Below, piece after piece: positions 11,039 to 43,158 of a stretch of 64,000 nt of DNA (position 1 is its first letter; every line of letters starts with the position of its first letter). The stretch is from positions 1-64,000 of the forward strand of contig NZ_JAQBIE010000002.1 in NCBI RefSeq assembly GCF_028294535.1. The letters run 5' to 3'. Under the pieces are notes generated by a model. The model was given only the letters and a program-made list of their open reading frames with translations, was not told the DNA's origin and searched no databases. Source of the stretch: Paracoccus onchidii. Its GTDB lineage: Bacteria; Pseudomonadota; Alphaproteobacteria; Rhodobacterales; Rhodobacteraceae. Both the position numbers and the translations under genes were made by a program.

Positions 11039-11067
11039 TCTTGTCATCGGCGACCCGCCTCCCCTGC

Positions 11068-11105: not shown

Positions 11106-11191
11106 CCAGCCTGACCCCGCTGGTCGGTCGGGCAATTGCATCTCGAATGGGCAGCTACATGACGGAACGTCGGGTCATTGACTTTGGCTGT

Positions 11192-11208: not shown

Positions 11209-11424
11209 CTGCGACTATTTGCGCGTCAGGCGCGTTCAGATTTATCGTTGACCAGATCCAAAGACCAGAGGATGACCACCACGTGACGCATTCCCGATAG
11301 GCCAGGACACGCGCCGAACCAGGCCGGGTTTCCCCCCCGCGCCCCGCATTGCCCGAAAGGAATCGGGCAGCTTGCGGTCGGCAGACAAAGAACAAGACGC
11401 AAAGACAACTTGTGAGGTAACCCC

Positions 11425-12399: not shown

Positions 12400-12932
12400 C
12401 ACAAGGCCGGACATTCGGCGCGGGGATCTGGCGCGCGCATGATGCGCTGACCCGCGCCGGGTTCCTTCTGGGCGGCGCCGCGCTTGCGGGGATCGTTGTG
12501 ACCTTCCTGATCGAGGTCGTCGCCCGTTATTTCTTCAATTCGCCGACGCTGTGGTCGGCCTCGGCGGTGGCGTATCTGCTATGCGCCGCGGCCACGCTTG
12601 CGATGCCCGAACTGGCCCGCACACGCGGCCATATCGGCATCACCATTCTGGAAGAAAAGCTGCCCACGGCGACGCAGGCCCGCTTCATCCGCATCATCGC
12701 GGCGCTGACCGCGATCGTCTGCAGCTTTGCCGCCTACATGATCTGGGTCGAGGCGATCCGGCAGGTGCAATCGGGCACCAGCACATCCTTTGCGGTCAGG
12801 ATCCCGAAGATCTGGCTGTCGGGGCTGATCTGCTACGGCTTTACCGGGACGGCGATCTACTATCTGCGGGCCGCGCTGGCACCCGACAGCCTGCCGTGGA
12901 ACGCGGACGAAGATCCGCAGGAAGGACTTTGA
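12396..12932 (+). CDS. dctQ: TRAP transporter small permease (DctQ family)
   Basis: This 178-residue membrane protein has four hydrophobic segments, as in DctQ subunits, including AALAGIVVTFLIEVVARYFF followed by NSPTLWSASAVAYLLCA and AALTAIVCSFAAYMIWVEAI. The motif VARYFFNSPTLWS is typical of DctQ helix 1. It forms the small integral part of the TRAP transporter with DctM. It overlaps dctP by four bases and ends two bases before dctM. Confidence 0.88.
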   Translation: MTQGRTFGAGIWRAHDALTRAGFLLGGAALAGIVVTFLIEVVARYFFNSPTLWSASAVAYLLCAAATLAMPELARTRGHIGITILEEKLPTATQARFIRIIAALTAIVCSFAAYMIWVEAIRQVQSGTSTSFAVRIPKIWLSGLICYGFTGTAIYYLRAALAPDSLPWNADEDPQEGL

Positions 12933-19389: not shown

Positions 19390-21051
19390 TCAATCCGTGC
19401 CGACGTCAAAGCCCTGCAAAACCGCAACGCCTGCCCTGATATCGTCGGTGAAGGGACGATCGGTTTCGACAAACGGCACGTCTTGGCGGTAACGCGCCAG
19501 CAGGCGCGAGGTGGCCTTTCCCAGATCCTCGGTTTCGCGCAGATCGACAGCTTGCGCCGCATGAAGCAATTGCATCGACGAGATCTTGTAGCCCAACTCG
19601 ATCAGGCTTGCGAGGTTGGCCACAGCGAGCGGCGTGTTGCTGGCAACATCCTCGATCCCCGCCGAGGTTCCCATGCCATCCAGCGATACGGGCAGCGACA
19701 ATTGCCGGGATTCGGCCAGCAATGCGGTCAGCGGAACCTGCAATGCGCCGAAAGCCAGGCCGGAATTCCCTTGTGCCGCCAGAAAGCGTGGCAGTTTCGT
19801 AAGGGACGGGTTTTCGTATCTGATGGTTTGCATCACCGCCGAGCGCATGACCCGGGCCAAGGCCAGGTTCAGTGCCTCGACCTTGTCACCGACAGGTAGC
19901 AGCTCGAAATTTGCCGTCGGGTAGATCGCACCGGCGTCACCGACCTGATATGCCTCGACCTGCGCGGACGCGCCCTCATATTGATGCCCAGAAATCGTGG
20001 CGGGATTGTCATCCGTATGGTTGATCTGGATCGTCAGCGCCGCGTTCAGCGCCTCACTGGCCTCGATTGCAGACCCCATGGCGTATGCCATCGTGCGATA
20101 GGACAACGGATCCTGCAAACCGCGGCTGTCGGACGGTTGCCACAAATAGCTGCTATCCAAGGCGTCCCGGATTTGCGCCGACGCCTTGACCATGCCCGGG
20201 AAAGGGCGAATGGTTGTGGTTTCTTCCAGGAAGGGCGCGACATTACCGTTGAACCCTTCCAATGCAAGCGCGAACGCCACGGCCTGCCTTTGAAGGTAGG
20301 CATCGGCGTCATGCGCCAACAGGGCCGCGTGGCCCGCCGTCAGCGCGTTCGAGCTGATGATCGACAGGAAATCCTTGCCGACCGGCGTGACGGGCGAAAG
20401 TTCCGCCTGGGTCAGTGCCTCGGCTGCTGGCATTCGCCTGCCCTTGTAGTCAACCTGCCATTCACCGATCATGGCCAGCCCGACATGCGCCGCCAAAGTG
20501 ATGTCTGCCTGCCCCAACGATCCCCGTTCAGGAACGACTGGCACGATGTCATGCAACAGGAACTGACGATACATCTCGGCGATATCGGGCTGGATCCCGG
20601 TTCTGCCGGTCAACATCTGGTTCAGCCGCACCACCATGCCGGCACGAACCACATCGCGATCCATTGCATCACCAAACCCCGCCGCATGCGCACGCAACTG
20701 TCCAAGGTTGAATGCGCGCGACAGGTCAAGCAATTGATCATCCAGAACCCGCTTTCCGTCCTCGACCTGGAATGCCGGGCGATCCTTGTTCCAACCGACC
20801 CCGACCGTCAGTCCATAGACCGCAACACCTTGGGTTGCGGCATCCATGACAAGATCGAAGCCGGATTGCAGCCGCTGTTGCGCTGTTGCGTCGATGGTAA
20901 TGCCCGTCGCGGGATCACGGGCAACCTCGACGACCTGTTCAATGGTCAGATTGGCGCCGTCCAACACCAGATCATCCGCAAATGCAGCCCCCGCCATCAT
21001 GGTTGCTGCGGTGACACCGGCAACCAGATTCCGAATACATGCCGAATTCAT
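19390..21051 (-). CDS. Exported HAL/PAL-superfamily lyase without MIO triad
   Basis: This 553-residue protein has a clear signal peptide (NLVAGVTAATMMAGAAFA). The rest follows the aromatic amino acid lyase fold: AVYGLTVGVGWNKD (Tyr79 region), a segment beginning RGSLGQADITLAAH, LSIISSNALTAGHAA, QDPLSYRTMAYAMGSA (Arg319), IQINHTDDNPATISGHQYEG and QGNSGLAFG. In HAL/PAL the Ala-Ser-Gly that cyclises to MIO sits in GSVGASGDLAPLAH. Here it is replaced by Gln181-Ala182, one residue shorter, so no MIO can form. Ergothionase is a known MIO-independent relative that eliminates trimethylamine. Location and neighbours suggest a periplasmic elimination feeding the urocanase-like enzyme; the substrate is unproven. 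GGAGG precedes the ATG. It is the last gene of the IclR-led arm. Confidence 0.8.
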   Translation of the reverse strand: MNSACIRNLVAGVTAATMMAGAAFADDLVLDGANLTIEQVVEVARDPATGITIDATAQQRLQSGFDLVMDAATQGVAVYGLTVGVGWNKDRPAFQVEDGKRVLDDQLLDLSRAFNLGQLRAHAAGFGDAMDRDVVRAGMVVRLNQMLTGRTGIQPDIAEMYRQFLLHDIVPVVPERGSLGQADITLAAHVGLAMIGEWQVDYKGRRMPAAEALTQAELSPVTPVGKDFLSIISSNALTAGHAALLAHDADAYLQRQAVAFALALEGFNGNVAPFLEETTTIRPFPGMVKASAQIRDALDSSYLWQPSDSRGLQDPLSYRTMAYAMGSAIEASEALNAALTIQINHTDDNPATISGHQYEGASAQVEAYQVGDAGAIYPTANFELLPVGDKVEALNLALARVMRSAVMQTIRYENPSLTKLPRFLAAQGNSGLAFGALQVPLTALLAESRQLSLPVSLDGMGTSAGIEDVASNTPLAVANLASLIELGYKISSMQLLHAAQAVDLRETEDLGKATSRLLARYRQDVPFVETDRPFTDDIRAGVAVLQGFDVGTD

Positions 21052-21124: not shown

Positions 21125-22441
21125 TCAGACAATGACCGGGCCAAGATGGGCGGCGGCCACCGCCAAGGGGATGCTCAGCAGGACACGGATCGCCCAGATC
21201 AACACCAGATGTGGCACCTTGACCGGAATCTCGGTTGCCAGAATGCAGGGGATCGACCCGGCAAAGAACAACAGCCCGGATACGGATGTGACACCAAACA
21301 GGTAGCGCGACATCATTGGCGCATCCGTCAGCATGCCGGTCGGAAAGAACATCTCGGCCAGGGCCGCGGCCATCGCTTTGGCGGTCAACATCGCTTCGGG
21401 CACCTGAAGCAGCGACAGCAAAGGATAGAAAAGCAATCCGAGCCAATCAAAGACCGGAGTATACATGCTGAGCAACAACCCCAGCAATCCGACCGAAACA
21501 CCCGTCGGCAAGATCACCGAAGTCATCTTCAATCCGTCTTTGACGTTTTCCCACAGCAGGCGCAGGAAACCCGGATTTCCTTCAACACGGGTCAGCGCGG
21601 CTTGCATCGCCGCAGCAAAATATCCGGTCGCGGCGACATCATCTTCCTGGTGACCGTCTTCCGTATCATCATACCACGAGATCGGTGGTATGCGGGCCGT
21701 GATGGCGGTGACGGCGAAGGTAACAAGCAATGTCGACCAGAAATAGTAATTCCAGATCGACAACAGGCCCAGAACCTTGGCCACGACAACCATGAAGGTC
21801 ACGGAAATCGTCGAGAACCCGGTCGCAATGATAACGGCCTGTCGAAACGAATAGGATCTTGTCAGAAACATGCGATTGGTGATCAGCAACCCGATGGAAT
21901 AGCTGCCGACGAAGGATGCCACCGCATCAACCGCCGAATAGCCCGGTGTGCGCCAGATCCGCCGCATGACCGGTTCCAGAAACACGCTGCAGAACTCGAT
22001 CAGCCCATAGCAAATCAGGAAACTCAGACCGATCGCGCCGATCGGAACGATCAATCCCAGGTTCAGGACCAGCTTTTCAAACAGGAACGGCATCATGCCC
22101 GGGCTTGTGATGACCGCAGGCGCGAAACCGGCGAGATAGGCGACGGTTGCGATCAACCCCAGCACCTTGAACGCGGAAAACACCATACTGCCCCAGGACT
22201 TGCGCCAGCTTCCGTCAAGAAACGGAGCCAGCGCGCCATAAAGGATCAGCAACAGCACAAAGGCTATTGCCGCGGGGCGGGCATGATCGACGATTGCGTT
22301 GGCGATATGCACGGGCAGGATCGTCGCCGTCCCGGCTATTGGCAATTCAACGAAAAAGATGACGATCCCGATCAGGCTGAGTGAGACCATCTTGAACAGG
22401 GTCGAGCCCCTGCCCGGTCGTCGTTCCAGGGTTTTTTCCAT
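21125..22441 (-). CDS. YjiH-family (nucleoside-recognition/GATE domain) membrane transporter
   Basis: This 438-residue polytopic membrane protein has about ten hydrophobic segments and two Gate-type halves (TPGYSAVDAVASFVGSYSIG, VPEAMLTAKAMAAALAEMFF). It resembles the YjiH/concentrative-nucleoside-like transporters. GGGAG precedes the ATG. It sits between the exported lyase and the Dabb/ureohydrolase genes in one orientation, so a role in importing the lyase product (a urocanate-like acid) or its substrate is a reasonable inference. An 89-base gap with a CCGGA/TCCGG dyad separates it from the Dabb gene. Confidence 0.75.
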   Translation of the reverse strand: MEKTLERRPGRGSTLFKMVSLSLIGIVIFFVELPIAGTATILPVHIANAIVDHARPAAIAFVLLLILYGALAPFLDGSWRKSWGSMVFSAFKVLGLIATVAYLAGFAPAVITSPGMMPFLFEKLVLNLGLIVPIGAIGLSFLICYGLIEFCSVFLEPVMRRIWRTPGYSAVDAVASFVGSYSIGLLITNRMFLTRSYSFRQAVIIATGFSTISVTFMVVVAKVLGLLSIWNYYFWSTLLVTFAVTAITARIPPISWYDDTEDGHQEDDVAATGYFAAAMQAALTRVEGNPGFLRLLWENVKDGLKMTSVILPTGVSVGLLGLLLSMYTPVFDWLGLLFYPLLSLLQVPEAMLTAKAMAAALAEMFFPTGMLTDAPMMSRYLFGVTSVSGLLFFAGSIPCILATEIPVKVPHLVLIWAIRVLLSIPLAVAAAHLGPVIV

Positions 22442-22530: not shown

Positions 22531-22827
22531 TCAGGCGATCACGTAGTCGGCAATCTTGGCATCAAAGATGTCTCTGGTTGCCTCCAGCACCTTCAGATGC
22601 GCGGGATGCGCACTGTATTGGGCCAGCCCGTCCGCATCGCGAAACTTCCACAAGGTTGCATAGTCCAGGGAATGCGGTTTGCACGAGGTATCCCATCCCA
22701 GTTCGGAATCCAGAACAGTGTCGATCTGACCGGGCAGTTCCTGGATCAGCTTGACCGCTTTCACGACGCGCGGATCGTCGCGTTCGATCCCGTCCTTCAG
22801 CTTGAACATGACAATATGTCTGAGCAT
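22531..22827 (-). CDS. Dabb (stress-responsive A/B barrel) domain protein
   Basis: This 98-residue protein reads MLRHIVMFKLKDGIERDD at its start and SLDYATLWKFRDADGLAQYS later, ending VIA, as in Dabb-fold proteins. These are small dimeric alpha/beta barrels, often of unknown function and sometimes catalytic (olivetolic acid cyclase type). Its start overlaps the ureohydrolase stop (TGATG), so it belongs to the operon and may be a small enzyme or binding protein of the same pathway. Confidence 0.8.
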   Translation of the reverse strand: MLRHIVMFKLKDGIERDDPRVVKAVKLIQELPGQIDTVLDSELGWDTSCKPHSLDYATLWKFRDADGLAQYSAHPAHLKVLEATRDIFDAKIADYVIA

Positions 22828-23801
22828 CAGATTGCTTCCTTCGCGGTTTGACGGCGCGACAAGGTGGCACCGATTGTGTTGCTGATCAGGCGCGTAATCG
22901 CGACCGAGGTAAGGTTGTGATTGTCGAATTCGGGGTAATGTTCTGCAAAGCCGATCCCGCGCAAATTGCAGCGTGAAACCAGATCGCGGATCATGTCCAC
23001 GCCATCATAGAATTGCAGTCCGCCGGGCAATGGAACGCTGGTGCCGGGCATAACGGACGGGTCGAACCCGTCGCAATCGATGCTGATATAGACATTCGCG
23101 CCATCAGGAAAATGTTGCAGCGCGACACCGACACCTTCGCGGACAACTTCACGGGCCGTAACGATGGCATTTCCTGCCTCAAGCGTGTCGTCGTGATCAC
23201 TGACATGGGCGCTGCCGATTCCGCGCGCACCGACATGAACAATTTTCGCGACATGCGACATCTCGCGAATGCGGCGCATCGGGCTTGAATAGCCACAGCG
23301 ATGCCCATCAACATTGTCGCGATAATCTAGATGCGCATCGATTTGCAAAACATGAATATCCGTGAAGGCATCCAGCCCTGCGCAAATCGGGATCGGGGTG
23401 GAATCGTCACCGCCCAGCACGATGGGCAGCGCCGACAAGACCGCAGCCGACCGGACTGTCTCTTCGATTATCGCGACATGCTGGCTGGGGTCATGCACCG
23501 GCCCGAAACAGTCGCCCAGATCCAGCAGACCGACCCCGGCTGGATCAAAAAACGGGCCTTGAAGGTCGAAATCATAACGTCCGGCGAATGCGTGATAACG
23601 CGCCGACGCGGATCGGATCGCATGCGGCGCCCGCGCCGCACCGGGTGCGATGCCCGGCACGGTATATGCGCTGCCAAATGGTGCGCCGATAATGGCGAAC
23701 CCGCCCGCAACGACGTCATCCACCTGACCCGCAGGGACTTGCATGAAGGTTGGCCCAGGAAAGGCCATGGCATGGCTGTTCATCAACCGGTCATTGCTCA
23801 T
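22827..23801 (-). CDS. Arginase/agmatinase-family ureohydrolase (HutG-like role possible)
   Basis: This 324-residue protein has ureohydrolase motifs: IVLGGDDSTPIP, LQIDAHLDYRD and YISIDCDGFDPSVMPG. The usual first motif is GGDHS; here Asp133 replaces the manganese-binding His. The family splits guanidino or formimino groups (arginase, agmatinase, formiminoglutamase). In a hut-like cluster a formiminoglutamase-type last step is the natural guess. The start overlaps the IclR stop (ATGA) and the stop overlaps the Dabb start. The His to Asp change may alter metal use, or mark a subfamily. Confidence 0.82.
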   Translation of the reverse strand: MSNDRLMNSHAMAFPGPTFMQVPAGQVDDVVAGGFAIIGAPFGSAYTVPGIAPGAARAPHAIRSASARYHAFAGRYDFDLQGPFFDPAGVGLLDLGDCFGPVHDPSQHVAIIEETVRSAAVLSALPIVLGGDDSTPIPICAGLDAFTDIHVLQIDAHLDYRDNVDGHRCGYSSPMRRIREMSHVAKIVHVGARGIGSAHVSDHDDTLEAGNAIVTAREVVREGVGVALQHFPDGANVYISIDCDGFDPSVMPGTSVPLPGGLQFYDGVDMIRDLVSRCNLRGIGFAEHYPEFDNHNLTSVAITRLISNTIGATLSRRQTAKEAI

Positions 23802-24487
23802 AGTTTGATCTCGATCTGACCGACCTCATCGCGCAACAGTTCGGACATGCGGATGATGTCGTCATCTGAAATACGGAATGATGGGCCGGTAATGTTGATT
23901 CCACCCAGCACCGCCCCGTCACGGGCATAAACCGGCATGGCAATTGCAGTGACATCGCGTTCGAAAGTAGCGCGCGAACTCTGGGTCTTGCCCTGTTCGC
24001 AATTGCCCGTCAGCACCGATCCGATCACCGTTCCCTTGACGGGCACACGCTCACCGACCCAGCGAACATGGCGAATGGCCATGGGGCTGTCGCTTTGCAG
24101 AAGGTATACAACTTCGTCCGGGCTGGCCAATTGCGCAAAGCAAACGGTCTCTTTCGTCAGATCCCGGAGCTTTTGCAAATGTGGCTGGATAATCTCGGTC
24201 AGCCCCGAGAACTGCGTCAGTGACAGGGCAATGCGCATCATCCTGCCGCCGGGCGCGTATAAACCATCTTCGCATTTGCGAATGTAATGCTCGCCCTCCA
24301 AGGTCTGGACCAGACGCACTGTGGTGCTGGATGGCAGATCCAGCGCGTCGGAAATCTCTTTCATCGAGAGCCGTTGTCGTTGGGGCCTGAACAGCTCGAT
24401 GATCGAGAACGCCCGCAATGCGGACCGGACACTGTCCCTGCCCCGCCTTTCCCCCGCCTGCGCCGGTGATGCCGATGCGTTCGCCAT
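23798..24487 (-). CDS. IclR-family transcriptional regulator
   Basis: This 229-residue protein has an N-terminal winged helix (RALRAFSIIELFRPQRQRLS, MKEISDALDLPSSTTVRLVQ) and the IclR effector domain (GLTEIIQPHLQKLRDLTKET, AMPVYARDGAVLGGINITGP). It leads the minus-strand arm and faces the HutI-like gene across 91 bases. That gap contains three CGGAGT/ACTCCG half-sites, the probable operator. It most likely senses an intermediate of the imidazole pathway and controls both arms. Confidence 0.88.
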   Translation of the reverse strand: MANASASPAQAGERRGRDSVRSALRAFSIIELFRPQRQRLSMKEISDALDLPSSTTVRLVQTLEGEHYIRKCEDGLYAPGGRMMRIALSLTQFSGLTEIIQPHLQKLRDLTKETVCFAQLASPDEVVYLLQSDSPMAIRHVRWVGERVPVKGTVIGSVLTGNCEQGKTQSSRATFERDVTAIAMPVYARDGAVLGGINITGPSFRISDDDIIRMSELLRDEVGQIEIKL

Positions 24488-24578: not shown

Positions 24579-25889
24579 ATGAACAAGACCGTGGATCTGA
24601 TCGTTGCGCATGCCGGAGAGCTGTTGACTTGTGCCGGCCCGGACACCGGTGTCGCCGGGTCGCAATTACAGGAACTGGAGATCATCAGGGACGGCGCAAT
24701 CGCAATCAAGGATGGCCGGATCGTCGCGACGGGTGCGTCAAGCGCAATCCTGTCGCAATACACTGCGACACAGCAGGTGGACGCCCAGGGGGCGTTGGTG
24801 TCACCGGCCCTGATCGATCCGCATACGCATCTGGTGCATATGGGAAGTCGTGAAGCCGAACTGGACGCCCGCGCGTCCGGCGGCGGGATCGCCAATGGCA
24901 TCTCGACCGGCGGCATTCGCGCGACGATCGAAGCGACCAGTTCGGCCAGCAACGATGCGCTGAAGCAGCGTGCCATCGGGGTTCTGGATCAGATGCTGTT
25001 GAATGGCACCGCCACGGTCGAGGCCAAGACCGGATATGGCGCAGACATGGCGCAGGAACTACGCCTGCTGAAAGTGACAAGATCACTGGATTGCGAACAT
25101 CCGGTCGAGGTCATTCCGACCTTTCTGGGCGCCCACATCCCCCCGGCCCATGACCGAGAGGGCTTTGTACAATCCGTCATCGATGCCATCCCGGCCGCCG
25201 CTGCCTTGTCAGAGTTTTGCGACATCGCCTGCGACTCGGTCTGTTTCGACTATGACGAAAGCGATCGCATTGCAGAGGTCGCCACATCTCACGGTATGAA
25301 GCTGCGCATCCATGCCAACCAGGCATCACCCTGGCGCGGGCTGGAACTTGCCGCGAAATGGAAAGCCGCAAGTGCCGATCACGGCGATTATGCCTTGCCG
25401 CAGGAATTGGCGCAGCTTGCCAAGGCGGGTGTCGTGTTGGTCTTGCTGCCGGGCGCGAATTTTCACATGCTGGAAACAACGACCGCGGTGGACGGGGATA
25501 CGATCCTGGCTGCGGCAAAGCCACATTTGCCGCAAACCGCAGCGCGCCTGATGCAGTCTGGCTGCGTGCCTTCGGTTGGCACGAATTACAATCCGGGTTC
25601 GTCCCCCTGCCTGTCGATGCAGATGATGATGCAGTTGCTGCCGCGCATGTTTCGCATCGGCTTTGCAGCGACCTGGTATATGGCAACCCTGAATGCAGCG
25701 GCCTCCCTGGGCAGAGCGACCCGGACCGGCAGCCTGCAACCGGGCAAGGACGCGAATTTCATTGTCTGGAATGTCCAGACCCATGGGCAGGTGATCAACC
25801 AGTTTGGCGGCAATCACGTTCGAGATGTCTGGATTTCCGGGCGCAAGGTCGTCTCGGACCGAAACATTTCATTCAGGACAACAGGGTGA
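24579..25889 (+). CDS. hutI: HutI-like imidazolonepropionase/amidohydrolase with an altered metal site
   Basis: This 436-residue amidohydrolase has HutI blocks: LIDPHTHLVHMGSREAEL (His82, His84), VEAKTGYGADMAQELRLLKV, VEVIPTFLGAHIPP, ADHGDY (His268) and NYNPGSSP. Canonical HutI opens 4-imidazolone-5-propionate to formiminoglutamate using one zinc held by two His, a His and an Asp in the TDFNPGSS motif. Here the Asp is Asn336. The mutation plus the loose fit elsewhere suggests a related but different ring-opening substrate. It is followed after three bases by the urocanase-like gene. GGAG of the operator serves as its ribosome site. Confidence 0.75.
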   Translation: MNKTVDLIVAHAGELLTCAGPDTGVAGSQLQELEIIRDGAIAIKDGRIVATGASSAILSQYTATQQVDAQGALVSPALIDPHTHLVHMGSREAELDARASGGGIANGISTGGIRATIEATSSASNDALKQRAIGVLDQMLLNGTATVEAKTGYGADMAQELRLLKVTRSLDCEHPVEVIPTFLGAHIPPAHDREGFVQSVIDAIPAAAALSEFCDIACDSVCFDYDESDRIAEVATSHGMKLRIHANQASPWRGLELAAKWKAASADHGDYALPQELAQLAKAGVVLVLLPGANFHMLETTTAVDGDTILAAAKPHLPQTAARLMQSGCVPSVGTNYNPGSSPCLSMQMMMQLLPRMFRIGFAATWYMATLNAAASLGRATRTGSLQPGKDANFIVWNVQTHGQVINQFGGNHVRDVWISGRKVVSDRNISFRTTG

Positions 25890-25892
25890 ATC

Positions 25893-27545
25893 ATGACAGA
25901 TCAAAGCACAAAAATCACGGCGACACGCGGGCTGGAACTGCGCTGCAAGGGCTGGCGCCAGGAAGCCATCCTGCGGATGCTGGAGAACAATCTTGAAAAT
26001 GCCGAACGCCCCGAGGATCTGATGATCTACATGTCGCGGGCCAAGGCCGCCCGGGATTGGAACGCCTATGGGAAGATCGAAAAGGCACTGATGGCAATGG
26101 ACACGAACCAGACGCTGGTCATGCAATCAGGCAAGCCGGTCGGCCTGTTCCCGACACAGGAAACGACGCCGATCGTCATCATGGCAAACGGCAATCTGGT
26201 AGGGCGCTGGACCGAGGTCGCAAAGCGGCGCAACCTCGAAGATGCCGGGCTGACCATTTTCCCGGGGATGACGGCGGCAGCATGGCAATATATCGGCAGC
26301 CAGGGCATCCTGCAGGGCACATACGAAACCTTCAAGACCGTCGGCAGGCATCATTTTGATGGCAGCATGGCCGGACGCTGGATTGTCACGGCAGGTTGCG
26401 GGGGCATGGGCGGCGCCCAGGGTCTTGCAGGCAAGCTGGCCGGGGCGGTCACCCTTGTGATTGATGTCAATCGCGCCGCGCTGGAACGACGCCTGAACAG
26501 CGGGTATCTGGATGTGATCGTCGATGATCTGGAATCCGCGCTTGAAATCTGCAACGATCACATCGCCCGAAAAACAGGTGCAGCCATTGGTCTTTGCGCC
26601 AACGTCGCGGATATTTTGACCACGCTGATCCAGCGCAATATCACCCCCGATGTCGTGACTGATCAGACCGAACCGGATGCCTATCGCGGCTATGTTCCGC
26701 AGGGAATGAGCGTTGAGCAATGCCTGCATGCCCGCAAAGCCGACCCCGAGGCATTGGCAGCAGCGGCCAACAAAACAATGCTGACGCATTTCCGCGCCTT
26801 GCTGACCCTGCGCGCACGCGGTGCCGTTTTCTTTGAATATGGCAATAACTTCAGAAGCGTGGTGTCTCAGCTGGGTGAAGAACGTGCCTTCGAGATCGAT
26901 TCCTTCGTCAAGGCCTATATCCGGCCGCTATTTTGCAAAGGGATCGGCCCGTTCCGCTGGATTGCCGCATCCGGCAACCCGGACGACATCGCCTTTATCG
27001 ATGATCTGATCCTGCAGAATTTCGCGCCGGAAACTCCGATCGCGCAATGGATCAATGTTGCCCGTGACCACGTTCAACATACCGGCCTGCCTGCACGTAT
27101 CGGCTGGCTTGGGTTTGGCGAACGTTCCAAACTGGCGGGGCTGGTCAACGAGGCGGTCCGCGATGGGCGGGTCACCGGCCCTGTCTGCTTTACCCGTGAT
27201 CATCTTGACTCGGGCTCGGCGGCACTGCCGTTTCGCGAAACGGATGGCATGAAAGACGGCTCTGACGCGGTTGCGGACTGGCCGCTCTTGAATGCCTTGC
27301 TGAATGCAAGCGCTGGGGCGGATCTGGTTGCTATTCATGAAATGGACGATTGGGCAAGATGCGCCGGTGTGACGCTTGTTGCGGATGGCAGCGATTGCGC
27401 TGCCCGCCGAATTCAGAATGTGCTGGATTGCGACCCCGGCATAGGTATCGCACGCCACGCGGATGCGGGTTATGAAAGTGCGCTGGAACTGCTGATGTCG
27501 CCGAGTTACACCCGGCGCATCATTCCGGCCACCGCCATCGAGTGA
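25893..27545 (+). CDS. hutU: Urocanase-family hydratase with an altered active site
   Basis: This 550-residue protein follows urocanase throughout: AKAARDWNAYGKIEKAL, MQSGKPVGLFPTQETTP, GSQGILQGTYETF, the NAD loop TAGCGGMGGAQGLAG, RPLFCKGIGPFRWIA and RDHLDSGSAALPFRET. Two catalytic regions differ. The Cys of the ARICW motif (Cys410 in Pseudomonas putida) is Gly404. The HHGGGVGMGYS loop is replaced by IHEMDDWARCAG around residues 482-493. Such changes are unlikely in a true urocanase. Thiourocanate hydratase is an established relative with a modified site. The neighbouring MIO-less lyase fits that idea, but the substrate is not proven. Confidence 0.78.
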   Translation: MTDQSTKITATRGLELRCKGWRQEAILRMLENNLENAERPEDLMIYMSRAKAARDWNAYGKIEKALMAMDTNQTLVMQSGKPVGLFPTQETTPIVIMANGNLVGRWTEVAKRRNLEDAGLTIFPGMTAAAWQYIGSQGILQGTYETFKTVGRHHFDGSMAGRWIVTAGCGGMGGAQGLAGKLAGAVTLVIDVNRAALERRLNSGYLDVIVDDLESALEICNDHIARKTGAAIGLCANVADILTTLIQRNITPDVVTDQTEPDAYRGYVPQGMSVEQCLHARKADPEALAAAANKTMLTHFRALLTLRARGAVFFEYGNNFRSVVSQLGEERAFEIDSFVKAYIRPLFCKGIGPFRWIAASGNPDDIAFIDDLILQNFAPETPIAQWINVARDHVQHTGLPARIGWLGFGERSKLAGLVNEAVRDGRVTGPVCFTRDHLDSGSAALPFRETDGMKDGSDAVADWPLLNALLNASAGADLVAIHEMDDWARCAGVTLVADGSDCAARRIQNVLDCDPGIGIARHADAGYESALELLMSPSYTRRIIPATAIE

Positions 27546-27658: not shown

Positions 27659-28294
27659 TCAGATCCTGCCGAAGGTAGCGCTCAGCTCTGACACCTGTGC
27701 CGACGACAGCGATCTTGCTGGCAGGCCACGCAAAGCGATCAGCAATTTTGCAGTTTCCTCCAGCTCTTCCGCGGCGCAACAGGCACCGAACAGGTTACGG
27801 CCGCACACAACCGTGCCATGATTGGCCAACAGAACCGCGGCATAGGCCCCGCCCAGATCACGGATCAGATCCCCGGCACGAGGATCGCCTGGCCTGACAT
27901 AAGGCACAAGCCTGACTGGCCCCACCCGCATGACGACATACGGCGTCAAGGGTGGAACGCAATTTTCGGGATCGGTATCTTCCAGGCAGGAAAGCGCCGT
28001 CGCCCATGTCGAATGCAGATGCACGACCGCGCCTGCATCGGCACGGGTTTCATAGAATGCCTGATGCAGGAACAGCTCTTTTGTGGGGCGATCACCCGCG
28101 ACATGGTTGCCATCGAAATCAACCTTGGCGATCCTTTCGGGATCGATGTCGCCAAGCGTCGCATTGGTCGGGGTCATCAAGATCCCGTCCGGAAGGCGCA
28201 CCGAAACATTGCCGGCGGTACCAACCGAGAACCCACGATCAAAGAGCGAACGGCACAAGCCCGAGATCTGTTGGCGCAATTCCGTTTCGGTCAT
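27659..28294 (-). CDS. otnC: Class II aldolase-family 3-oxo-tetronate 4-phosphate decarboxylase
   Basis: This 211-residue class II aldolase/adducin protein has SVGTAGNVSVR, TKELFLHQAFYETRAD (catalytic Glu), VVHLHSTWATALSC (His-x-His zinc ligands) and VLLANHGTVVCGRNL (third His). Next to an OtnK kinase this architecture is the OtnC decarboxylase that turns 3-oxo-tetronate 4-phosphate into dihydroxyacetone phosphate and CO2. It overlaps the kinase gene by four bases and is the last gene of the minus-strand operon. Confidence 0.85.
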   Translation of the reverse strand: MTETELRQQISGLCRSLFDRGFSVGTAGNVSVRLPDGILMTPTNATLGDIDPERIAKVDFDGNHVAGDRPTKELFLHQAFYETRADAGAVVHLHSTWATALSCLEDTDPENCVPPLTPYVVMRVGPVRLVPYVRPGDPRAGDLIRDLGGAYAAVLLANHGTVVCGRNLFGACCAAEELEETAKLLIALRGLPARSLSSAQVSELSATFGRI

Positions 28295-29568
28295 GCGCCT
28301 TCCTCCATCTTGCGTAGCGCTTTGATAAAAAAATCCCCGGTTCCGAAATTTCCCGACTTCAAGGCCAGCGCGACAGGCTCCGCCCCCTTGACGGTCAGAA
28401 CCGGCACGCCGGGATCAATTTCGGGGCCAACGGCCATCGCGGACGAGGCCAATGTATCGGCCACGGCCTGCGCGACCGCCCCCGAGGTTTCGCCCCCGGC
28501 CACCACGATCCGGCGATATCCGGACCGGACCAGATCCTGCGCGGTGTCCGCAAACAACCCGTCCAGTCGCTTGGCAACCGCCTCTCTGCCGAACCGATCT
28601 TGCAAGGCCCGGACCTGCGCCGGAGCGCCAGACGAATAGGCCAGCGGTGCCTGCCCGATATGCATTTTGTAAAACTGGGCCAACGTGGCACTGGTAATCT
28701 CGCCCGACATGACCCTCGGCACGTCAATGGCAAAGGTTGGGTGAAGTTTGGCGTGCAGGTCAATCTGCCCGCGCGTTGCCCCGGAACAGGACCCCGCAAG
28801 AATTGCTTCGGGTCCACGAACGGGTGTAAACGATGCGGCCTGTGTGGTCGCATGGCCTGCGCGAATGAAATTGCGCGCCAATCCCAACGCGATCCCCGAC
28901 GCCCCCGTAATCAATGGCGCATCGTGCAACGCTTCGGCCAGGATCAGCAGATCCGTTTCGGACAAGGCATCCGCAATGACATATGGCGCGGCCTGATTTC
29001 GCAACCAGTCCCGCAGGGCTTGTGCGCCCTGGGCGACCACCGCAGCAGGCACCAAGCCAACCTCACGGCGCGTCTGATGGCCTAGCCACCGCCTGAGATT
29101 GGCATCGGTCATCGGCGTCAGGGGATGGTTTTCCATCCCGGATTCATTCAGTAACCGGCCATTCACGAACAGATGTCCCTGATAAACCGTGCGACCGGCG
29201 GCGGGAAATGCCGGACAGAACACCACCCGTTCGGCACCCAGAGCCGCGCTCAGGGCATCGGCAACCGAACCGATATTGCCTTCGCATGTGGAATCGAAGG
29301 TCGAGCAGTATTTGAAAACGACCTGCCGGCACCCCTGATCGCGCAACCAATCCAGGGCAGACAAGCTATCGCTGACGGCGTCCGCAACAGGCGCCGTTCG
29401 GCTTTTCAAGGCTATCACCCCCGCATCAACTTCCGGTGCCGCCCGTTCGACAGGAATGCCCGAATATTGCGCGGTGCGCAGCCCGCCCTCTGGCGCGATC
29501 CCCTTGGCCAGAGTGTTGGCGATATCACTCGCGCCGGTAAAATCATCCGCAATGACACCGATCAGCAT
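28291..29568 (-). CDS. otnK: Four-carbon acid sugar kinase, DUF1537 family (3-oxo-tetronate kinase)
   Basis: This 425-residue protein opens with the DUF1537 motif MLIGVIADDFTGASDIANTL. It has the substrate-domain block VFKYCSTFDSTCEGNIGSVA and FCPAFPAAGRTVYQGHLFVN, and the nucleotide-domain block RIVVAGGETSGAVAQAV and GPEIDPGVPVLTV. OtnK phosphorylates 3-oxo-tetronate at C4. It overlaps the racemase-family and OtnC genes. The length matches the family. Confidence 0.9.
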   Translation of the reverse strand: MLIGVIADDFTGASDIANTLAKGIAPEGGLRTAQYSGIPVERAAPEVDAGVIALKSRTAPVADAVSDSLSALDWLRDQGCRQVVFKYCSTFDSTCEGNIGSVADALSAALGAERVVFCPAFPAAGRTVYQGHLFVNGRLLNESGMENHPLTPMTDANLRRWLGHQTRREVGLVPAAVVAQGAQALRDWLRNQAAPYVIADALSETDLLILAEALHDAPLITGASGIALGLARNFIRAGHATTQAASFTPVRGPEAILAGSCSGATRGQIDLHAKLHPTFAIDVPRVMSGEITSATLAQFYKMHIGQAPLAYSSGAPAQVRALQDRFGREAVAKRLDGLFADTAQDLVRSGYRRIVVAGGETSGAVAQAVADTLASSAMAVGPEIDPGVPVLTVKGAEPVALALKSGNFGTGDFFIKALRKMEEGA

Positions 29569-30287
29569 CGGCCACCTCCTCCTTGGGTTTCTATTCTGCG
29601 ACGCATCTCGATGATCGCGGACTGCGGACTTGTCAGAACCGGCAAGTCGGTTGCGGCCCGCACGGCATCGGCCGCGCCCGACATGGAAAACTGGGCTAGC
29701 ATGATCGCATCCACACCCTTGATCGACGCCGCCATTTGCGCGATCAACTGATCATGCAGGCCTGAATCACCCCGCAGTTTCGCCTCTAGCGCGCCCTCGA
29801 CGACATGCGTTGTCACGCGCGCGGAACCACCGCGGGCAAATGCGGTCTCGTGAAACTCGGCCGTCATGCCAGGGACGGCCGGAGCAAATGTGCAGATCAT
29901 CGCAATTCTGTTGCCGTGACCAAGTGCTTCGCAGAACATTGCCTCATTTGGTTTCATGACCGGAACCCCACCCCGCTCTGCCGCAAGATCGATCGCCGCG
30001 CCAAAAGCCGAACAGGTGAACAACACCCCATCGGCCCCCGCATCCTCGGCATATCGTGCCAGCCACAGGATGCGATCCATCAATTCAGATGACAGCGCGG
30101 CGGATTTCCGACGATCGACAGACAACGCCTCTTCCAGAAGCGAAACTGTCTCTGCCTCTGGCCACAGGCTGCGGGCTGCGGCTTCGACAGGATCCATCGC
30201 CAATCTTGTGGCATGGACCAGAGCCAGTCGGGGCTGACAGGGCACCGAATCCGGGTTTCGCGCATCCGGGGCGTGCGGGTCGGTCAC
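29562..30287 (-). CDS. Aspartate/glutamate racemase-superfamily protein
   Basis: This 241-residue protein has the fold pattern of the Asp/Glu/hydantoin racemase superfamily. The first catalytic Cys lies in GVLFTCSAFGAAIDLAAERG. In the second half the usual GC(A/T) motif reads AIMLAQFSMSGAAD, with no Cys, so two-base racemisation is unlikely. Single-Cys members include decarboxylases and isomerases. Being embedded in an otn operon, it probably acts on the sugar-acid or a side product. Starts and stops overlap its neighbours by four and seven bases. Confidence 0.75.
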   Translation of the reverse strand: MTDPHAPDARNPDSVPCQPRLALVHATRLAMDPVEAAARSLWPEAETVSLLEEALSVDRRKSAALSSELMDRILWLARYAEDAGADGVLFTCSAFGAAIDLAAERGGVPVMKPNEAMFCEALGHGNRIAMICTFAPAVPGMTAEFHETAFARGGSARVTTHVVEGALEAKLRGDSGLHDQLIAQMAASIKGVDAIMLAQFSMSGAADAVRAATDLPVLTSPQSAIIEMRRRIETQGGGGRC

Positions 30288-31369
30288 GCCGCGACCGCGA
30301 CCTTGGCAACTTCTTGCGCGACCAGCCGGCCAAAGGCATCGGTATTGACACTTCCGCCTAGGTCGCGCGTGCGATTGGCCGGATCGTCAATCACGGCATC
30401 CACGGCCTCCGCAATGGCCTGCCCCGCAATCATCAGCTTGTGCACGCCGCGCTGTTCACCCAGCCAAGTCAGCATCATCGCCGCCGACAGGATCAACGAG
30501 GTCGGATTGGCGACATTCCTTCCCGCAATGTCGGGGGCCGAGCCATGCTGGGCTTGCGCACAGCACAGACCTGTTTCTGCATTGGCGTTGATCGAACCCG
30601 CCAAGCCGAGCGAACCTGACAGTTCCGAGGCCAGATCAGACAAGATGTCGCCATAGAAATTGGTTGCCACGACCACATCATATTTCTGTGGATGGCGCAC
30701 CAGCAATGCGGCAAAGGCATCCACGATCAACTCCTCGGTCTCGACCTCGGGGAAGTCTTGGGCGACCTTGCGGAAACACTCAAGGAACAGGCCGTCCGTC
30801 ATCAGGAAAGAATTGGCCTTGTGAATGGCGGTAACCTTTTTCTGCCGCTGCATGGCCAGCTTGAACGCCTCGCGGCAGATCCGCATGGATCCGTGCCGGG
30901 TGATCTTGCGCACCGACAGCGCCATATCCGGGTCGGGCATCATCTCGCCCACCCCCTTGAACATGTTGCGATCAGGATAAAACCCTTCGGTTGCCTCGCG
31001 CATGATGATCAGGTCCATGCCGGGCGCCTTGTTGGAAATAAAGTCGCGGCTGCGCGCAGGTCGGACATTGGCATACAGGTCCAGCCCGATGCGGAAACCC
31101 GCAGAAACATTGCGCCCGCCCTCGGCCACTGGCGGGTAATCCATATGCGACTGCGTTCCCAGGATCACCCCGTCGAAATCATTGCGCGCGCGATCCAGAA
31201 CCTCTTCGCGCAGGGTAATTCCGTGCCTTGCAAGGCTGTCAAATCCGGATTCTTCTTCATGAAAGGACAACCCGAGATCAAAGCGCGCATTTGCCGCACG
31301 TGCCACCTCCAGCGTGGCCGCCATGATTTCAGGTCCAATTCCGTCGCAAGGCAAAGTCATGATCTTCAT
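30284..31369 (-). CDS. Isocitrate/isopropylmalate/tartrate dehydrogenase-family enzyme
   Basis: This 361-residue beta-decarboxylating dehydrogenase has LPCDGIGPEIMAATLEVA, DLYANVRPARSR, LIIMREATEGFYPDRN, TAIHKANSFLMTDGLF (catalytic Lys), TNFYGDILSDLASELSGSLG (metal Asp) and GSAPDIAGRNVANPTSLIL. It is the first gene of the otn operon. Published otn-type pathways use a 3-HIBDH-type dehydrogenase (LtnD) to make the 3-oxo acid; here this metal-dependent family seems to take that step, as in tartrate dehydrogenase. GGGAGG lies nine bases before the ATG at 31369. Confidence 0.85.
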   Translation of the reverse strand: MKIMTLPCDGIGPEIMAATLEVARAANARFDLGLSFHEEESGFDSLARHGITLREEVLDRARNDFDGVILGTQSHMDYPPVAEGGRNVSAGFRIGLDLYANVRPARSRDFISNKAPGMDLIIMREATEGFYPDRNMFKGVGEMMPDPDMALSVRKITRHGSMRICREAFKLAMQRQKKVTAIHKANSFLMTDGLFLECFRKVAQDFPEVETEELIVDAFAALLVRHPQKYDVVVATNFYGDILSDLASELSGSLGLAGSINANAETGLCCAQAQHGSAPDIAGRNVANPTSLILSAAMMLTWLGEQRGVHKLMIAGQAIAEAVDAVIDDPANRTRDLGGSVNTDAFGRLVAQEVAKVAVAA

Positions 31370-31553
31370 TATCTGCATCCTCCCGTCATGCATCGTGCAG
31401 GTTTGGCTGTTCGGATTGCTCTTTAGCATCACGATATGCACTTATCAATTCAAAAATGCACCCCGGAGTTTCACATGATCGCATCTCAACCAGCTATGGC
31501 GGATAATAGTTGCTGCATCCAGCGATGAACAATCGCCCATTATGCATTTTTAG

Positions 31554-37747: not shown

Positions 37748-37950
37748 GCATCGCGCCCCGCAATAAAACTGAGTCAGTGGAGATTATTTTTAATATTATC
37801 AATACACTAATATGATCCCCGTTTAGCCGGACAACAGCGACTCCGGGGCTCGGAAAATACAAAATGTTCGTTATTGACAATTAAATATACACTCATGCAC
37901 ATTTATCGCGTTACACGAACTTCATGCCAACGCCACAATGCAGGTTCCGG

Positions 37951-39987
37951 ATGTCGAACGACCCGCTATTGCAGCCCTTCCAACTGAAACATCTGACGCT
38001 GCGCAATCGCATCATGATTACCAGCCACGAACCCGCCTATCCCGAGGACGGGATGCCCAAGGACCGTTATCGCGCCTATCATGTCGAACGGGCCAAGGCA
38101 GGGGTGGCGCTGACGATGACCGCGGGCTCGGCCTCGGTGTCGCGCGACAGTCCGCCGGTTTTCAACAACATCCTGGCCTGGAAGGACGAGGTCGTCGGCT
38201 GGATGAAGAAGATGACCGACGAATGCCACGATCACGGCTGTGCGGTGATGATCCAGCTGACCCATCTGGGTCGGCGCACCCGCTGGGACAAGGCCGACTG
38301 GCTGCCCGTCGTCTCGCCCAGCCATGAACGCGAGGCCGCGCATCGGTCCTTTCCGAAAAAGATCGAGGATTGGGACATTCAGCGCATCATCACCGATTAT
38401 GTCGATGCGGCCGAACGGATGAAGGATGCGGGTCTGGATGGGCTGGAACTGCAGGCCTATGGCCATCTGATGGATCAGTTCTGGTCGCCGCTGACCAATG
38501 AGCTGGACGGTCCTTACGGCGGCGATCTGGACAACCGCCTGCGTTTTACCTTCGATATCCTGCGCGGCATCCGCGAACGCTGTGGCGAGGATTTTCTGCT
38601 GGGCGTGCGCTATACCGGCGATGAATGCCTGCCGGGCGGTTTCGGCGCACAGGACGGCATCGCCATTTCGCAAAAGCTGAAGGCCAGCGGTCTGGTCGAT
38701 TTCCTGAATGTCGTACGCGGTCATATCGACACCGATGCCGGGCTGACCGATGTGATCCCGGTGCAGGGCATGCGCAACGCGCCGCATCTGGAATTCGCAG
38801 GGCAGATCCGCAAGGCGACCGATTTCCCGACCTTCCATGCCGCCAAGATCCCCGATGTACCGACCGCGCGTCACGCCATCGCCAGCGGTCTGGTCGATAT
38901 GGTCGGCATGACCCGCGCGCATCTGGCCGACCCGCATCTGGTCCGCAAGGTGATCGAAAAGCGCGAGGATGATATCCGCCCCTGCGTCGGCGCGAATTAC
39001 TGTCTGGACCGGATCTATCAGGGCGGCATGGCCTTCTGCCTGCACAATGCCGCCACCGGCCGCGAAGAAACGATGCCCCATGCCATCCCGGCCACCGACA
39101 CGCCGCGCCGCGTCACCATCATCGGCGCCGGCCCCGGCGGGATGGAAGCCGCGCGCGTCGCCGCCGAACGTGGCCACAAGGTCACCGTGTTCGAGGCCGC
39201 GGATCAGCCCGGCGGCCAGATCCGCCTGACCGCGCAACAGGAACGGCGGCGCGAGATGATCTCGATCATCGCTTGGCGCTTTGACCAATGCACGAGGCTG
39301 GGCGTCGATTTCCGTTTCAACAGCTTTGCGGACGAGGGCGACGTTCTGGCGACCTCGCCCGATGATGTCATCATCGCGACCGGCGGTCTGCCCCATACCG
39401 AGGTCCTGACCGAGGGCAATGATCTGGTCGTGTCGGCCTGGGACATCCTGTCGGGCGATGTGAAACCCGGCAGCAACGTGCTGATCTATGACGATGCGGG
39501 CGATCACGCCGCGCTGCAGGCCGCCGACATGATCTCGGCCAGCGGGGCCAGGGTCGAGATCGTCACCCCCGATCGCAGCTTTGCGCCCGAAGTGATGGCG
39601 ATGAATCTGGTGCCCTATATGCGCGCCCTGCAACAGCGCGATACGACCTTTACCGTGACCTGGCGTCTGCAGACGGTCCATCGCAGCGGCAATATGCTGA
39701 CCGCCACGCTCGGCAGCGATTATGGCGACGTGACCCGTCAGCGTCAGGTCGATCAGGTCGTCGTCAATCACGGCACCCGCCCGCTGGACGAGCTGTATTT
39801 CGACCTGAAGCCGCAATCCAGCAATCTGGGCGAGGTCGATTACGAGGCGCTGGCCACGGGCGGGTTGCAGCGTGTCAGCACCAATCCCGACGGCGCCTTC
39901 CGCCTGTTCCGGATCGGCGATGCGGTCGCGGCGCGCAATACCCATGCCGCCATCTATGACGCCCTGCGCCTGATGAAGGATATCTGA
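37951..39987 (+). CDS. DgcA-like FMN/FAD oxidoreductase (trimethylamine-dehydrogenase family)
   Basis: This protein has about 678 residues. The N-terminal OYE-like TIM barrel (residues 1-370) reads FQLKHLTLRNRIMITSHEPA, QLTHLGRRTRW, YGGDLDNRLRFTFDILRGIR and RPCVGANYCLDR (Fe-S Cys region partly retained). The C-terminal part has FAD/NAD loops (VTIIGAGPGGMEAARVAAER, DDVIIATGGLPHTE, ending FRIGDAVAARNTHAAIYDAL). Size and architecture match DgcA, the dimethylglycine demethylase, and stachydrine/trimethylamine-type demethylases. It stands 38 bases before a GbcA-like Rieske gene. The ATG at 37951 has GCAGG upstream; an ATG at 37924 is the alternative. Confidence 0.82.
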   Translation: MSNDPLLQPFQLKHLTLRNRIMITSHEPAYPEDGMPKDRYRAYHVERAKAGVALTMTAGSASVSRDSPPVFNNILAWKDEVVGWMKKMTDECHDHGCAVMIQLTHLGRRTRWDKADWLPVVSPSHEREAAHRSFPKKIEDWDIQRIITDYVDAAERMKDAGLDGLELQAYGHLMDQFWSPLTNELDGPYGGDLDNRLRFTFDILRGIRERCGEDFLLGVRYTGDECLPGGFGAQDGIAISQKLKASGLVDFLNVVRGHIDTDAGLTDVIPVQGMRNAPHLEFAGQIRKATDFPTFHAAKIPDVPTARHAIASGLVDMVGMTRAHLADPHLVRKVIEKREDDIRPCVGANYCLDRIYQGGMAFCLHNAATGREETMPHAIPATDTPRRVTIIGAGPGGMEAARVAAERGHKVTVFEAADQPGGQIRLTAQQERRREMISIIAWRFDQCTRLGVDFRFNSFADEGDVLATSPDDVIIATGGLPHTEVLTEGNDLVVSAWDILSGDVKPGSNVLIYDDAGDHAALQAADMISASGARVEIVTPDRSFAPEVMAMNLVPYMRALQQRDTTFTVTWRLQTVHRSGNMLTATLGSDYGDVTRQRQVDQVVVNHGTRPLDELYFDLKPQSSNLGEVDYEALATGGLQRVSTNPDGAFRLFRIGDAVAARNTHAAIYDALRLMKDI

Positions 39988-40025
39988 TCACCGCCCTGCA
40001 ACATCATTCAGGAAGGTCCGCCACC

Positions 40026-41261
40026 ATGATGCCGAATTCCGAACTGCTTTCGCTTCTGGGCAGCCGCCAGCCCTGGCACACGCTGCCCCAGCCCTTCTAT
40101 AACGACCCCGCCCTGTTTCAGGCGGACCTAGCCCATATCTGGTATCGCGATTGGGTCTTTGCGGTCACCTCGGCTGAACTGCCCAAGGTCGGCAGCTATG
40201 TGACCGTTCGCATCGGCGATCATTCCGTGATCGTGGTGCGCGGGTCGGACCGCGTGATCCGTGCGTTTCACAATTCCTGCCGCCACCGGGGCAGCCATGT
40301 CTGCACCGCCGAGCGCGGCACCGCGCCGAAACTGGTCTGTCCCTATCATCAATGGACCTATGATCTGGACGGCAAGCTGTTGTGGGCGCGCGATATGGGC
40401 CCTGATTTCAAGCCGCAGGATCACGGGCTGGGCATGGTGCATTGCCGCGAGGTCGAGGGCATGGTCTATCTGTGCCTTGCCGATGATGCCCCCGATATCG
40501 AGCCTCTGGCCGCCAGCGCGCCGGGTTATATGGGCCCCCATGATCTGTCCAACCTGAAGGTCGCCCATGTCGCCCATAGCGTTGAGCAGGCGAACTGGAA
40601 GCTGGTGATGGAAAACAATCGCGAATGTTACCATTGCAGCAGCAACCACCCCTCGCTGTGCGTGACCTTCCCGGATGATCCGAACCTGTTCGGCTCGGAC
40701 GATGTCAGCGGCTCGAACGCGGGGATGCAGCACATCGCGCGTTGCGAGGCTGCGGGGCTGCCCTCGAAATACCTGCTGGGGCCGGACGGTCAGTGGCGTT
40801 TTGTGCGCATCCCGTTTTTGGGCGATGCGGTCAGCTATACGATGGATGGCAAGCAGGCCGTGAACCGCCGCATCGGCACCCTGCCCTTTGACAATGCCGG
40901 GTCCTGCCTGCTGTACCACTATCCGAACAGCTGGAACCATTTTCTGTCGGATCAGGCCCTGACCTTCCGCATCCTGCCGGTCGGTCCGCAGGAAACCCAT
41001 CTGGTCACCACCTGGCTGGTCCACAAGGACGCGGTCGAGGGCGTGGATTACGATCTGGACCGCCTGACCAAGGTCTGGCTGGCGACCAATGACGAAGACC
41101 GGCGCATCTGCGAACAGAACCAGCGCGGCGTCAACACGCCGGGCTATCGCCCCGGCCCCTACAGCCAGACGCATGAGGGCGGCGTGAACCAGTTCGTCGA
41201 CTGGTATTGCGATACATTGTCCCGCCGCCTGCAGGGTCGGCAGGCCATCGCCGCAGAATAG
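40026..41261 (+). CDS. GbcA-like Rieske non-heme iron oxygenase, large subunit
   Basis: This 411-residue protein has a Rieske centre CRHRGSHVC...CPYHQWTYDL in the N-terminal third. The mononuclear iron site is ENNRECYHCSSNHP, the pattern of glycine-betaine and stachydrine demethylases; NDEDRRICEQNQRG near the end supplies the carboxylate region. It would oxidatively demethylate a quaternary ammonium compound, feeding the DgcA-like enzyme. No partner reductase (GbcB) is encoded nearby, so electrons must come from elsewhere. AGGAAGG precedes the tandem ATGs. Confidence 0.85.
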   Translation: MMPNSELLSLLGSRQPWHTLPQPFYNDPALFQADLAHIWYRDWVFAVTSAELPKVGSYVTVRIGDHSVIVVRGSDRVIRAFHNSCRHRGSHVCTAERGTAPKLVCPYHQWTYDLDGKLLWARDMGPDFKPQDHGLGMVHCREVEGMVYLCLADDAPDIEPLAASAPGYMGPHDLSNLKVAHVAHSVEQANWKLVMENNRECYHCSSNHPSLCVTFPDDPNLFGSDDVSGSNAGMQHIARCEAAGLPSKYLLGPDGQWRFVRIPFLGDAVSYTMDGKQAVNRRIGTLPFDNAGSCLLYHYPNSWNHFLSDQALTFRILPVGPQETHLVTTWLVHKDAVEGVDYDLDRLTKVWLATNDEDRRICEQNQRGVNTPGYRPGPYSQTHEGGVNQFVDWYCDTLSRRLQGRQAIAAE

Positions 41262-41324
41262 AGAACGCATCGCACAAGAAGAAATTCTACAATCAAAAAC
41301 AATCAACAAGGGGGAATATCTATA

Positions 41325-43148: not shown

Positions 43149-43158
43149 CACCAAACGC

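Follow-up and report, generated by a model that had tools for sequence, protein, structure and literature searches.

The urocanase homologue encoded at positions 25893-27545 of the analyzed window (64,000 nt of Paracoccus onchidii, contig NZ_JAQBIE010000002.1 of assembly GCF_028294535.1, positions 1-64,000, forward strand) is, as judged by its sequence, a further member of a structurally solved family, the S-methylthiourocanate hydratases, and the unusual part of the locus is the partner gene set, not the enzyme family. Members of this recently solved family probably degrade compounds related to the antioxidant ergothioneine instead of histidine. In the best explanation, to which we give an even chance, the enzyme would hydrate a ring-substituted urocanate, likeliest S-methylthiourocanate, within a shortcut route opened by a HutI-like enzyme and finished by an arginase-like enzyme. 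It is very probably an NAD+-dependent hydratase of some substituted urocanate, and the scales are about level on whether the ring substituent would be S-methyl. The hydratase gene belongs to a block of the following seven genes, given in map order:

19390-21051, minus strand: ergothionase-like lyase without MIO triad (GSLGQADITL); apparent signal peptide MNSACIRNLVAGVTAATMMAGAAFA; 273 bits to 6s7j
21125-22441, minus strand: YjiH/Gate-domain membrane protein, candidate transporter; PF07670 45 bits; 88% to the P. seriniphilus YjiH protein
22531-22830, minus strand: Dabb-domain protein, 99 aa; PF07876 62.4 bits; 79% to the P. seriniphilus neighbour
22827-23801, minus strand: arginase/agmatinase-superfamily hydrolase (arginase-like protein); Pfam Arginase 174 bits; best structure agmatinase 1wog
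23798-24487, minus strand: IclR-family regulator, divergent from the HutI-like gene; Pfam HTH_IclR and IclR_C
24579-25889, plus strand: HutI-like amidohydrolase of a divergent HutI clade; TIGR01224 302.8 against a cut-off of 298.15; 2bb0 245 bits
25893-27545, plus strand: short-loop urocanase homologue (S-methylthiourocanate hydratase family); Gly404, loop 480-493 AIHEMDDWARCAGV; NF058531 912.4; 8q9v 663 bits; model Z 57.3

Sequence, fold and family of the hydratase

The hydratase ORF comprises 550 aa with an ATG start, its N-terminal, Rossmann and C-terminal urocanase domains were all identified with Pfam, and it was the sole urocanase homologue detected genome-wide in P. onchidii (one match). 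The original prediction described a urocanase homologue with a rebuilt active site, in which Cys410 has become Gly404 and the HHGGGVGMGYS loop is replaced. Both changes were borne out by an alignment of 181 rows (182 BLAST hits, from which three window copies and a short hit were removed, and three PDB segments), comprising 82 HHGG, 11 HNGG, 52 HSGGGGY (thiourocanate-hydratase type) and 34 short-loop proteins as well as two with other loops. The rebuilding is thus real, but already known, since the solved Variovorax enzyme 8q9v carries both changes. The Cys410 column holds Cys in 81 of the 82 HHGG and all 11 HNGG urocanases, whereas Gly, Ala and Cys occur in 35, 15 and 2 of the thiourocanate-hydratase-type proteins and in 32, 1 and 1 of the short-loop proteins, respectively. 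The P. onchidii loop is four residues shorter than that of canonical urocanase (AIHEMD----DWARCAG versus SVHHGGGVGMGYSIHAG of 1x87). The NAD loop, described as intact, is kept as TAGCGGMGGAQG, but the near-invariant Pro177 is changed to Gly (Ala in P. seriniphilus; Pro in 32 of the 34 short-loop rows).

That the rest of the fold is intact agreed with an AlphaFold2 model built from a 36-row alignment (mean pLDDT 89.5, pTM 0.89). The predicted structure matched 8q9v with a Z value of 57.3 (1.4 Å, 543 residues, 56% identity) and the thiourocanate hydratase 7ned with 56.9, canonical urocanases reaching about 55 with the same model. Because 8q9v and 7ned are tied, the subfamily cannot be chosen from the fold alone. 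Among the NCBIfam models, NF058531 ('S-methyl thiourocanate hydratase') was passed (912.4; cut-off 880), as was the broader HutU model TIGR01228 (642.6; cut-off 375), and NF058530 (thiourocanate hydratase) was missed (658.5; cut-off 930). The closest solved chains are 8q9v and 8q9u, titled S-methylthiourocanate hydratase from Variovorax sp. RA8, the ligands of 8q9v being NAD+ and imidazolone propionate by its title. By alignment, Arg448 corresponds to Arg450 of 8q9v, the residue exchanged in the R450A variant 8q9u; every one of the 34 short-loop rows has Arg at this position, and all 52 thiourocanate-hydratase-type rows have Ile. A thiourocanate hydratase proper was ruled out by the NF058530 cut-off, the loop and Arg448.

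A comparison with thiourocanate hydratases in a tree had been proposed along with the original prediction. In the tree of 47 hydratase rows, the 34 short-loop proteins formed one clade (support 100/99), which contains the P. onchidii enzyme together with 8q9v and lies apart from the long-loop 7ned. The pN/pS value of 0.18, obtained over 550 codons relative to the P. seriniphilus homologue, indicates purifying selection; together with the single short-loop clade, it implies that the active-site changes are not due to chance. Within the clade, the hydratases of P. onchidii and P. seriniphilus (82% identical) pair on a long branch (0.73), beside a Bradyrhizobium-type group (98/93) and outside the 8q9v subclade. 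The Paracoccus pair features private changes at eight positions (Ala263, Phe320, His396, Val431, Cys432, Asp451, Cys490, and Ile507), which are 94-100% constant in the other 32 short-loop rows. Its placement on a long branch and these changes suggest that it may use a different substrate than 8q9v does. In total, 25 distinct loop strings were counted among the 34 proteins of the short-loop clade; since the loop by which canonical, thio- and S-methyl-type hydratases are told apart is this variable, substrate prediction becomes testable.

The NF058531 cut-off was passed by eight of ten scored proteins (window, P. seriniphilus (L091), Agrobacterium (L093), L096, L098, L109, L111, and L113) and missed by two, narrowly by the short-loop protein of L126 (858.6) and more clearly by the long-loop protein of Blastococcus (L129; 760.8). 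The S-methylthiourocanate hydratase type is rare: the cut-off was passed in 2 of 341 genomes of the order and in 1 of 398 genomes of the phylum (the window itself), and a search of 125 genomes of the genus (E 1e-165) returned three matches, namely the window, one whose coordinates are those of P. seriniphilus, and a long-loop protein. Elsewhere, a 2.7-Mb genome (G086; loci L176, L177, and L178) was found to harbour four hydratase copies, 53-55% identical to the window protein, two of which are in tandem and have an even shorter loop; at the L178 copy, five consecutive adjoining frames match histidine ammonia-lyase at 22-28%. The P. seriniphilus record annotates its hydratase as plain urocanate hydratase, a label by which such a genome would be credited with histidine use, although the lyase and the hydratase of the block were the sole members of their families found in the P. 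onchidii genome.

Gene block and partner enzymes

The HutI-like gene stops 3 bases short of the hydratase gene. All seven genes recur in unchanged order on a P. seriniphilus plasmid, where a small hypothetical frame is added, and pN/pS values between 0.15 and 0.27 were determined for the seven block genes against this species (six over the aligned length, the lyase over a C-terminal piece). The P. seriniphilus lyase (L091, 9710-11318) is split into two overlapping frames, representing either a real disruption or a sequencing error. Directly downstream of the hydratase, on the minus strand (27659-31441), a 3-oxo-tetronate 4-phosphate decarboxylase and a 3-oxo-tetronate kinase, both above NCBIfam cut-offs, are encoded together with a dehydrogenase. 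About 10 kb from the hydratase, the region 37924-44697 encodes an OYE-type flavoenzyme (687 aa) with a glycine betaine monooxygenase-like Rieske oxygenase (490.6; cut-off 670), a BCCT-family transporter and the DMSP lyase DddP (849.6; cut-off 600); by its gene content, it is a putative quaternary-amine and DMSP catabolic region.

The lyase has ergothionase 6s7j as its best PDB match, the next chain reaching 142 bits. No NCBIfam cut-off was passed by this protein, the best model being histidine ammonia-lyase (264.6 versus 524), and the MIO-less enzyme is closer to 6s7j than to HAL. It was the only member of its family found in the P. onchidii genome. Signal-like N-termini, as judged by eye, also occur in its relatives from P. 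seriniphilus, P. denitrificans, P. saliphilus, Sinorhizobium meliloti and Achromobacter, and none was seen in those from Paenibacillus and Cohnella (L122, L132, and L143). In P. denitrificans, the relative (60% identical) is located about 1.6 kb behind a long-loop hydratase, at whose locus ErtD-, ErtE- and desulfurase-like genes were identified by BLAST. In P. saliphilus (L184, 9911-11599), an exported-looking relative (58%) directly follows a canonical hut operon, an arrangement representing a candidate hercynine pathway. Since these settings differ, the lyase points to a histidine betaine without fixing which one, and a substrate of this class is suggested for the P. onchidii enzyme. Among ten genomes with short-loop or related hydratases, a close relative of the lyase was detected only in Achromobacter (41%, 282 bits); seven genomes yielded matches of 27-32% (77-155 bits) and two nothing, the four betaproteobacterial genomes being at 28-29% or without a match.

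The HutI-like protein retains the HTH and His motifs of HutI, and its TNYNPGSSP motif (TNFNPG in P. seriniphilus) differs from TDxNPGSSP of HutI by an exchange of Asp for Asn. We take this Asp to be metal ligand and base in HutI, and its loss makes hydrolysis by the HutI-like enzyme doubtful. In a tree of 18 rows, for which the program warned of long branches, seven HutI-like proteins (window, P. seriniphilus, L109, L110, L118, L126, and L129) formed one clade (100/99) apart from canonical HutI; the other five members have Asp at the position in question. Each of the seven genes is found at the locus of a non-canonical urocanase and on its strand (next to it in three cases, approximately 4-5 kb away in four), with an IclR gene nearby; as the loci were retrieved via their urocanases, this co-occurrence holds within that sample. 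A search of 385 genomes of the class (E 1e-75) matched the HutI-like protein only in the P. onchidii genome.

No NCBIfam cut-off was passed by the arginase-like protein. GGDDS replaces GGDHS in the arginase-like proteins of the window, P. seriniphilus, L109, L110, L118, and L126, whereas the motif is GGDH or GGEH in the four solved relatives that were aligned. In Rhizobium tumorigenes, the source of the one more distant plasmid relative inspected, it reads GGDCS, and the gene has no hut-like neighbours.

Pathway genes in the genome and at related loci

The described Ert route proceeds via a desulfurase, a hydantoinase (ErtD) and a carbamoylase (ErtE). None of the three genes was found near the P. 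onchidii hydratase, and PF06032 (desulfurase, NF058532) had no match anywhere in the genome. The Pfam name S-Me-THD was read as S-methyl thiohydantoin desulfurase, in agreement with the NCBIfam name of the Agrobacterium protein. The four best ErtD- and ErtE-like proteins of the P. onchidii genome scored 118-199.5 (ErtD cut-offs 600 and 650) and 294.6-327.8 (ErtE cut-off 520). The ErtD relatives, 28% identical, score as dihydropyrimidinase and dihydroorotase, and the ErtE relatives are 33-35% identical, one of them being an M20 hydrolase at window positions 7416-8663.

Gene neighbourhoods at other loci were determined by BLAST against chosen proteins. Using the Agrobacterium genes, a PF06032-type (DUF917) neighbour was identified at 25 and a GST neighbour at 20 of 33 short-loop hydratase loci, some of which lie on short contigs. 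The Agrobacterium neighbours themselves exceeded the cut-offs for desulfurase (537.9 versus 450), ErtD (782.8 versus 600) and ErtE (576.1 versus 520). At one locus (L179 of G426, 7713-12706), short-loop hydratases with the loops HSHGDRSQSAG and HGLGGRGVSAG flank a single desulfurase-like/GST pair, which suggests, from the gene arrangement, that two substrates may feed one route.

The four betaproteobacterial loci (L109, L110, L118, and L126) feature an arginase-like and an IclR gene on the minus strand and a HutI-like gene on the plus strand, followed by transport genes and a short-loop hydratase. PF06032 was present in 6 of 10 compared genomes (all five of the desulfurase type and Blastococcus) and absent from all four betaproteobacterial genomes with the HutI-like/arginase-like set, several of the compared genomes being bins that may be incomplete. 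L109 and L118 also encode a urocanase with canonical loop on the minus strand, across the HutI-like gene from the short-loop hydratase, and L126 has a urocanase fragment at the locus edge. HutI at these three loci may therefore serve ordinary histidine breakdown, so that the betaproteobacterial support is ambiguous. In the free tree, the hydratases of the Paracoccus pair did not group with the betaproteobacterial four; a single origin of the hydratases sharing a locus with HutI-like and arginase-like genes was not rejected by the AU test (p 0.062).

Proposed route, alternatives and known systems

The sequence establishes the family, the fold, the gene block and the lack of a PF06032 match, and from these we infer the substrate, the export of the lyase, the order of steps and their products. 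The lyase (21051-19390), probably exported, would remove trimethylamine from a histidine betaine, for example S-methylergothioneine, and the YjiH-type membrane protein may import the resulting acrylate. The hydratase would add water to the acrylate, yielding a 2-substituted imidazolone-5-propionate, the ring of which would be opened directly by the HutI-like enzyme. Finally, the arginase-like enzyme would cleave the resulting isothiourea- or amidine-type glutamate. In this way, the HutI-like and arginase-like enzymes would replace the desulfurase, the ErtD hydantoinase and the ErtE carbamoylase of the described route. Thiohydantoin or hydantoin requires a desulfurase and a hydantoinase, 2-substituted imidazolone can be opened directly by a HutI-type enzyme, and isothiourea- or amidine-type bonds are of the sort cleaved by the arginase superfamily. 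Given that direct opening of this kind is possible, a substituted non-thione ring, as in S-methylthiourocanate, is preferred.

It is possible, and here put forward tentatively, that P. onchidii and P. seriniphilus encode an undescribed histidine-betaine module, in which an exported MIO-less trimethylamine lyase, a further remodelled hydratase, an Asp-less HutI-like protein and a ureohydrolase-type protein with GGDD would bypass desulfurase, hydantoinase and carbamoylase, the substituent perhaps not being S-methyl. A literature search by title and opening abstract, with the primary papers of the family outside its scope, returned no description of a HutI/arginase branch and hence represents a weak negative. 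PMC13405746 reports, from another paper, that gut bacteria release hydrogen sulphide from thiourocanate, and the five-step ergothioneine pathway of Beliaeva et al. is named in the reference list of PMC9732360. If the proposed route is true, it would give bacteria a second means of degrading ergothioneine that is S-methylated or modified in another way, with the histidine-use scheme of HutI followed by an arginase-like enzyme employed again.

The lack of PF06032 in P. onchidii and in the four betaproteobacterial genomes with the same set suggests a sulfur-free substrate and could favour N-methylurocanate, derived from N-methylated histidine or its betaine, in which case the HutI-like and arginase-like enzymes would act on N-methylated imidazolone and formimidoyl intermediates. 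The private pocket changes of the Paracoccus pair fit this proposal, as does L109, where an MIO-type HAL fragment and a canonical urocanase could let modified histidines feed in. However, the P. onchidii lyase is ergothionase-like and MIO-less, and a literature search by title yielded no characterised N-methylurocanate hydratase, so that we regard this substrate as unlikely. Plain urocanate would be converted if lyase, hydratase, HutI-like and arginase-like enzymes formed a hercynine (trimethylhistidine) pathway leading to glutamate. The imidazolone propionate in 8q9v, bound according to its title, implies that the family probably handles the unsubstituted ring, the HutI-like protein narrowly exceeds the HutI cut-off, and in P. 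saliphilus the lyase relative directly follows the hut operon; yet the urocanase there is of the ordinary Cys/HHGGG type, and hydratase, HutI-like and arginase-like proteins are all altered at active-site motifs, which plain urocanate would not require. The hercynine proposal thus appears distinctly unlikely.

Family score and fold would also suit an ordinary member of the S-methylergothioneine (Ert) route with its other genes elsewhere, the HutI-like and arginase-like genes being unrelated passengers, and related chemistry is offered by a dihydropyrimidinase (596.3; cut-off 393.25) with an adjoining M20 hydrolase on another contig and by the second M20 hydrolase in the window (7416-8663). This proposal is highly improbable: these proteins are far below the ErtD and ErtE cut-offs, PF06032 is lacking despite a genome completeness rating of 99.99%, P. 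seriniphilus has kept the block, and betaproteobacteria also show the arginase-like/IclR/HutI-like arrangement. The original prediction saw not a decayed urocanase but an enzyme that works on a different substrate, and both sequence and model support this view through the open frame, the confident fold, purifying selection, the conserved block and the family placement. A decaying urocanase copy, to which the missing active-site Cys and loop and the two-frame P. seriniphilus lyase might point, is scarcely credible and was ruled out by the frame, fold and selection, the identical two changes in the solved 8q9v also opposing it.

Among known systems, the Variovorax sp. RA8 S-methylthiourocanate hydratase (8q9u, 8q9v) shares with the P. 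onchidii enzyme the Gly at the Cys410 position, the loop shortened by four residues, Arg448/450 and the whole fold. The two differ in the loop (HEMDDWARCAG versus HSNGDKSASAG of 8q9v), the eight private changes and the separate long branch. A further difference is that, by the tests made, the P. onchidii genome is without desulfurase, ErtD and ErtE genes. Thiourocanate hydratase 7ned (NF058530) resembles the enzyme in fold and in the Gly at the Cys410 position, but its HSGGGGYAGYMTSAG loop is long and the position of Arg448 is occupied by Ile. With HutU (1uwk, 1x87, 2fkn; TIGR01228), the hydratase shares fold, domains and a score above the cut-off, whereas Cys410 and the HHGGGVGMG loop are missing. 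The HutI-like partner, just over the TIGR01224 cut-off and in this respect similar to HutI 2bb0, departs from it by the exchange of Asp for Asn in TDxNPG and by forming its own clade. Similar to ergothionase (6s7j and 6s7q, presumably from Treponema denticola), its closest solved structure, the lyase lacks the MIO triad and contains the GVGWNKD motif; unlike ergothionase, it features an apparent signal peptide, and its GLTVGVG replaces GLNRGVG.
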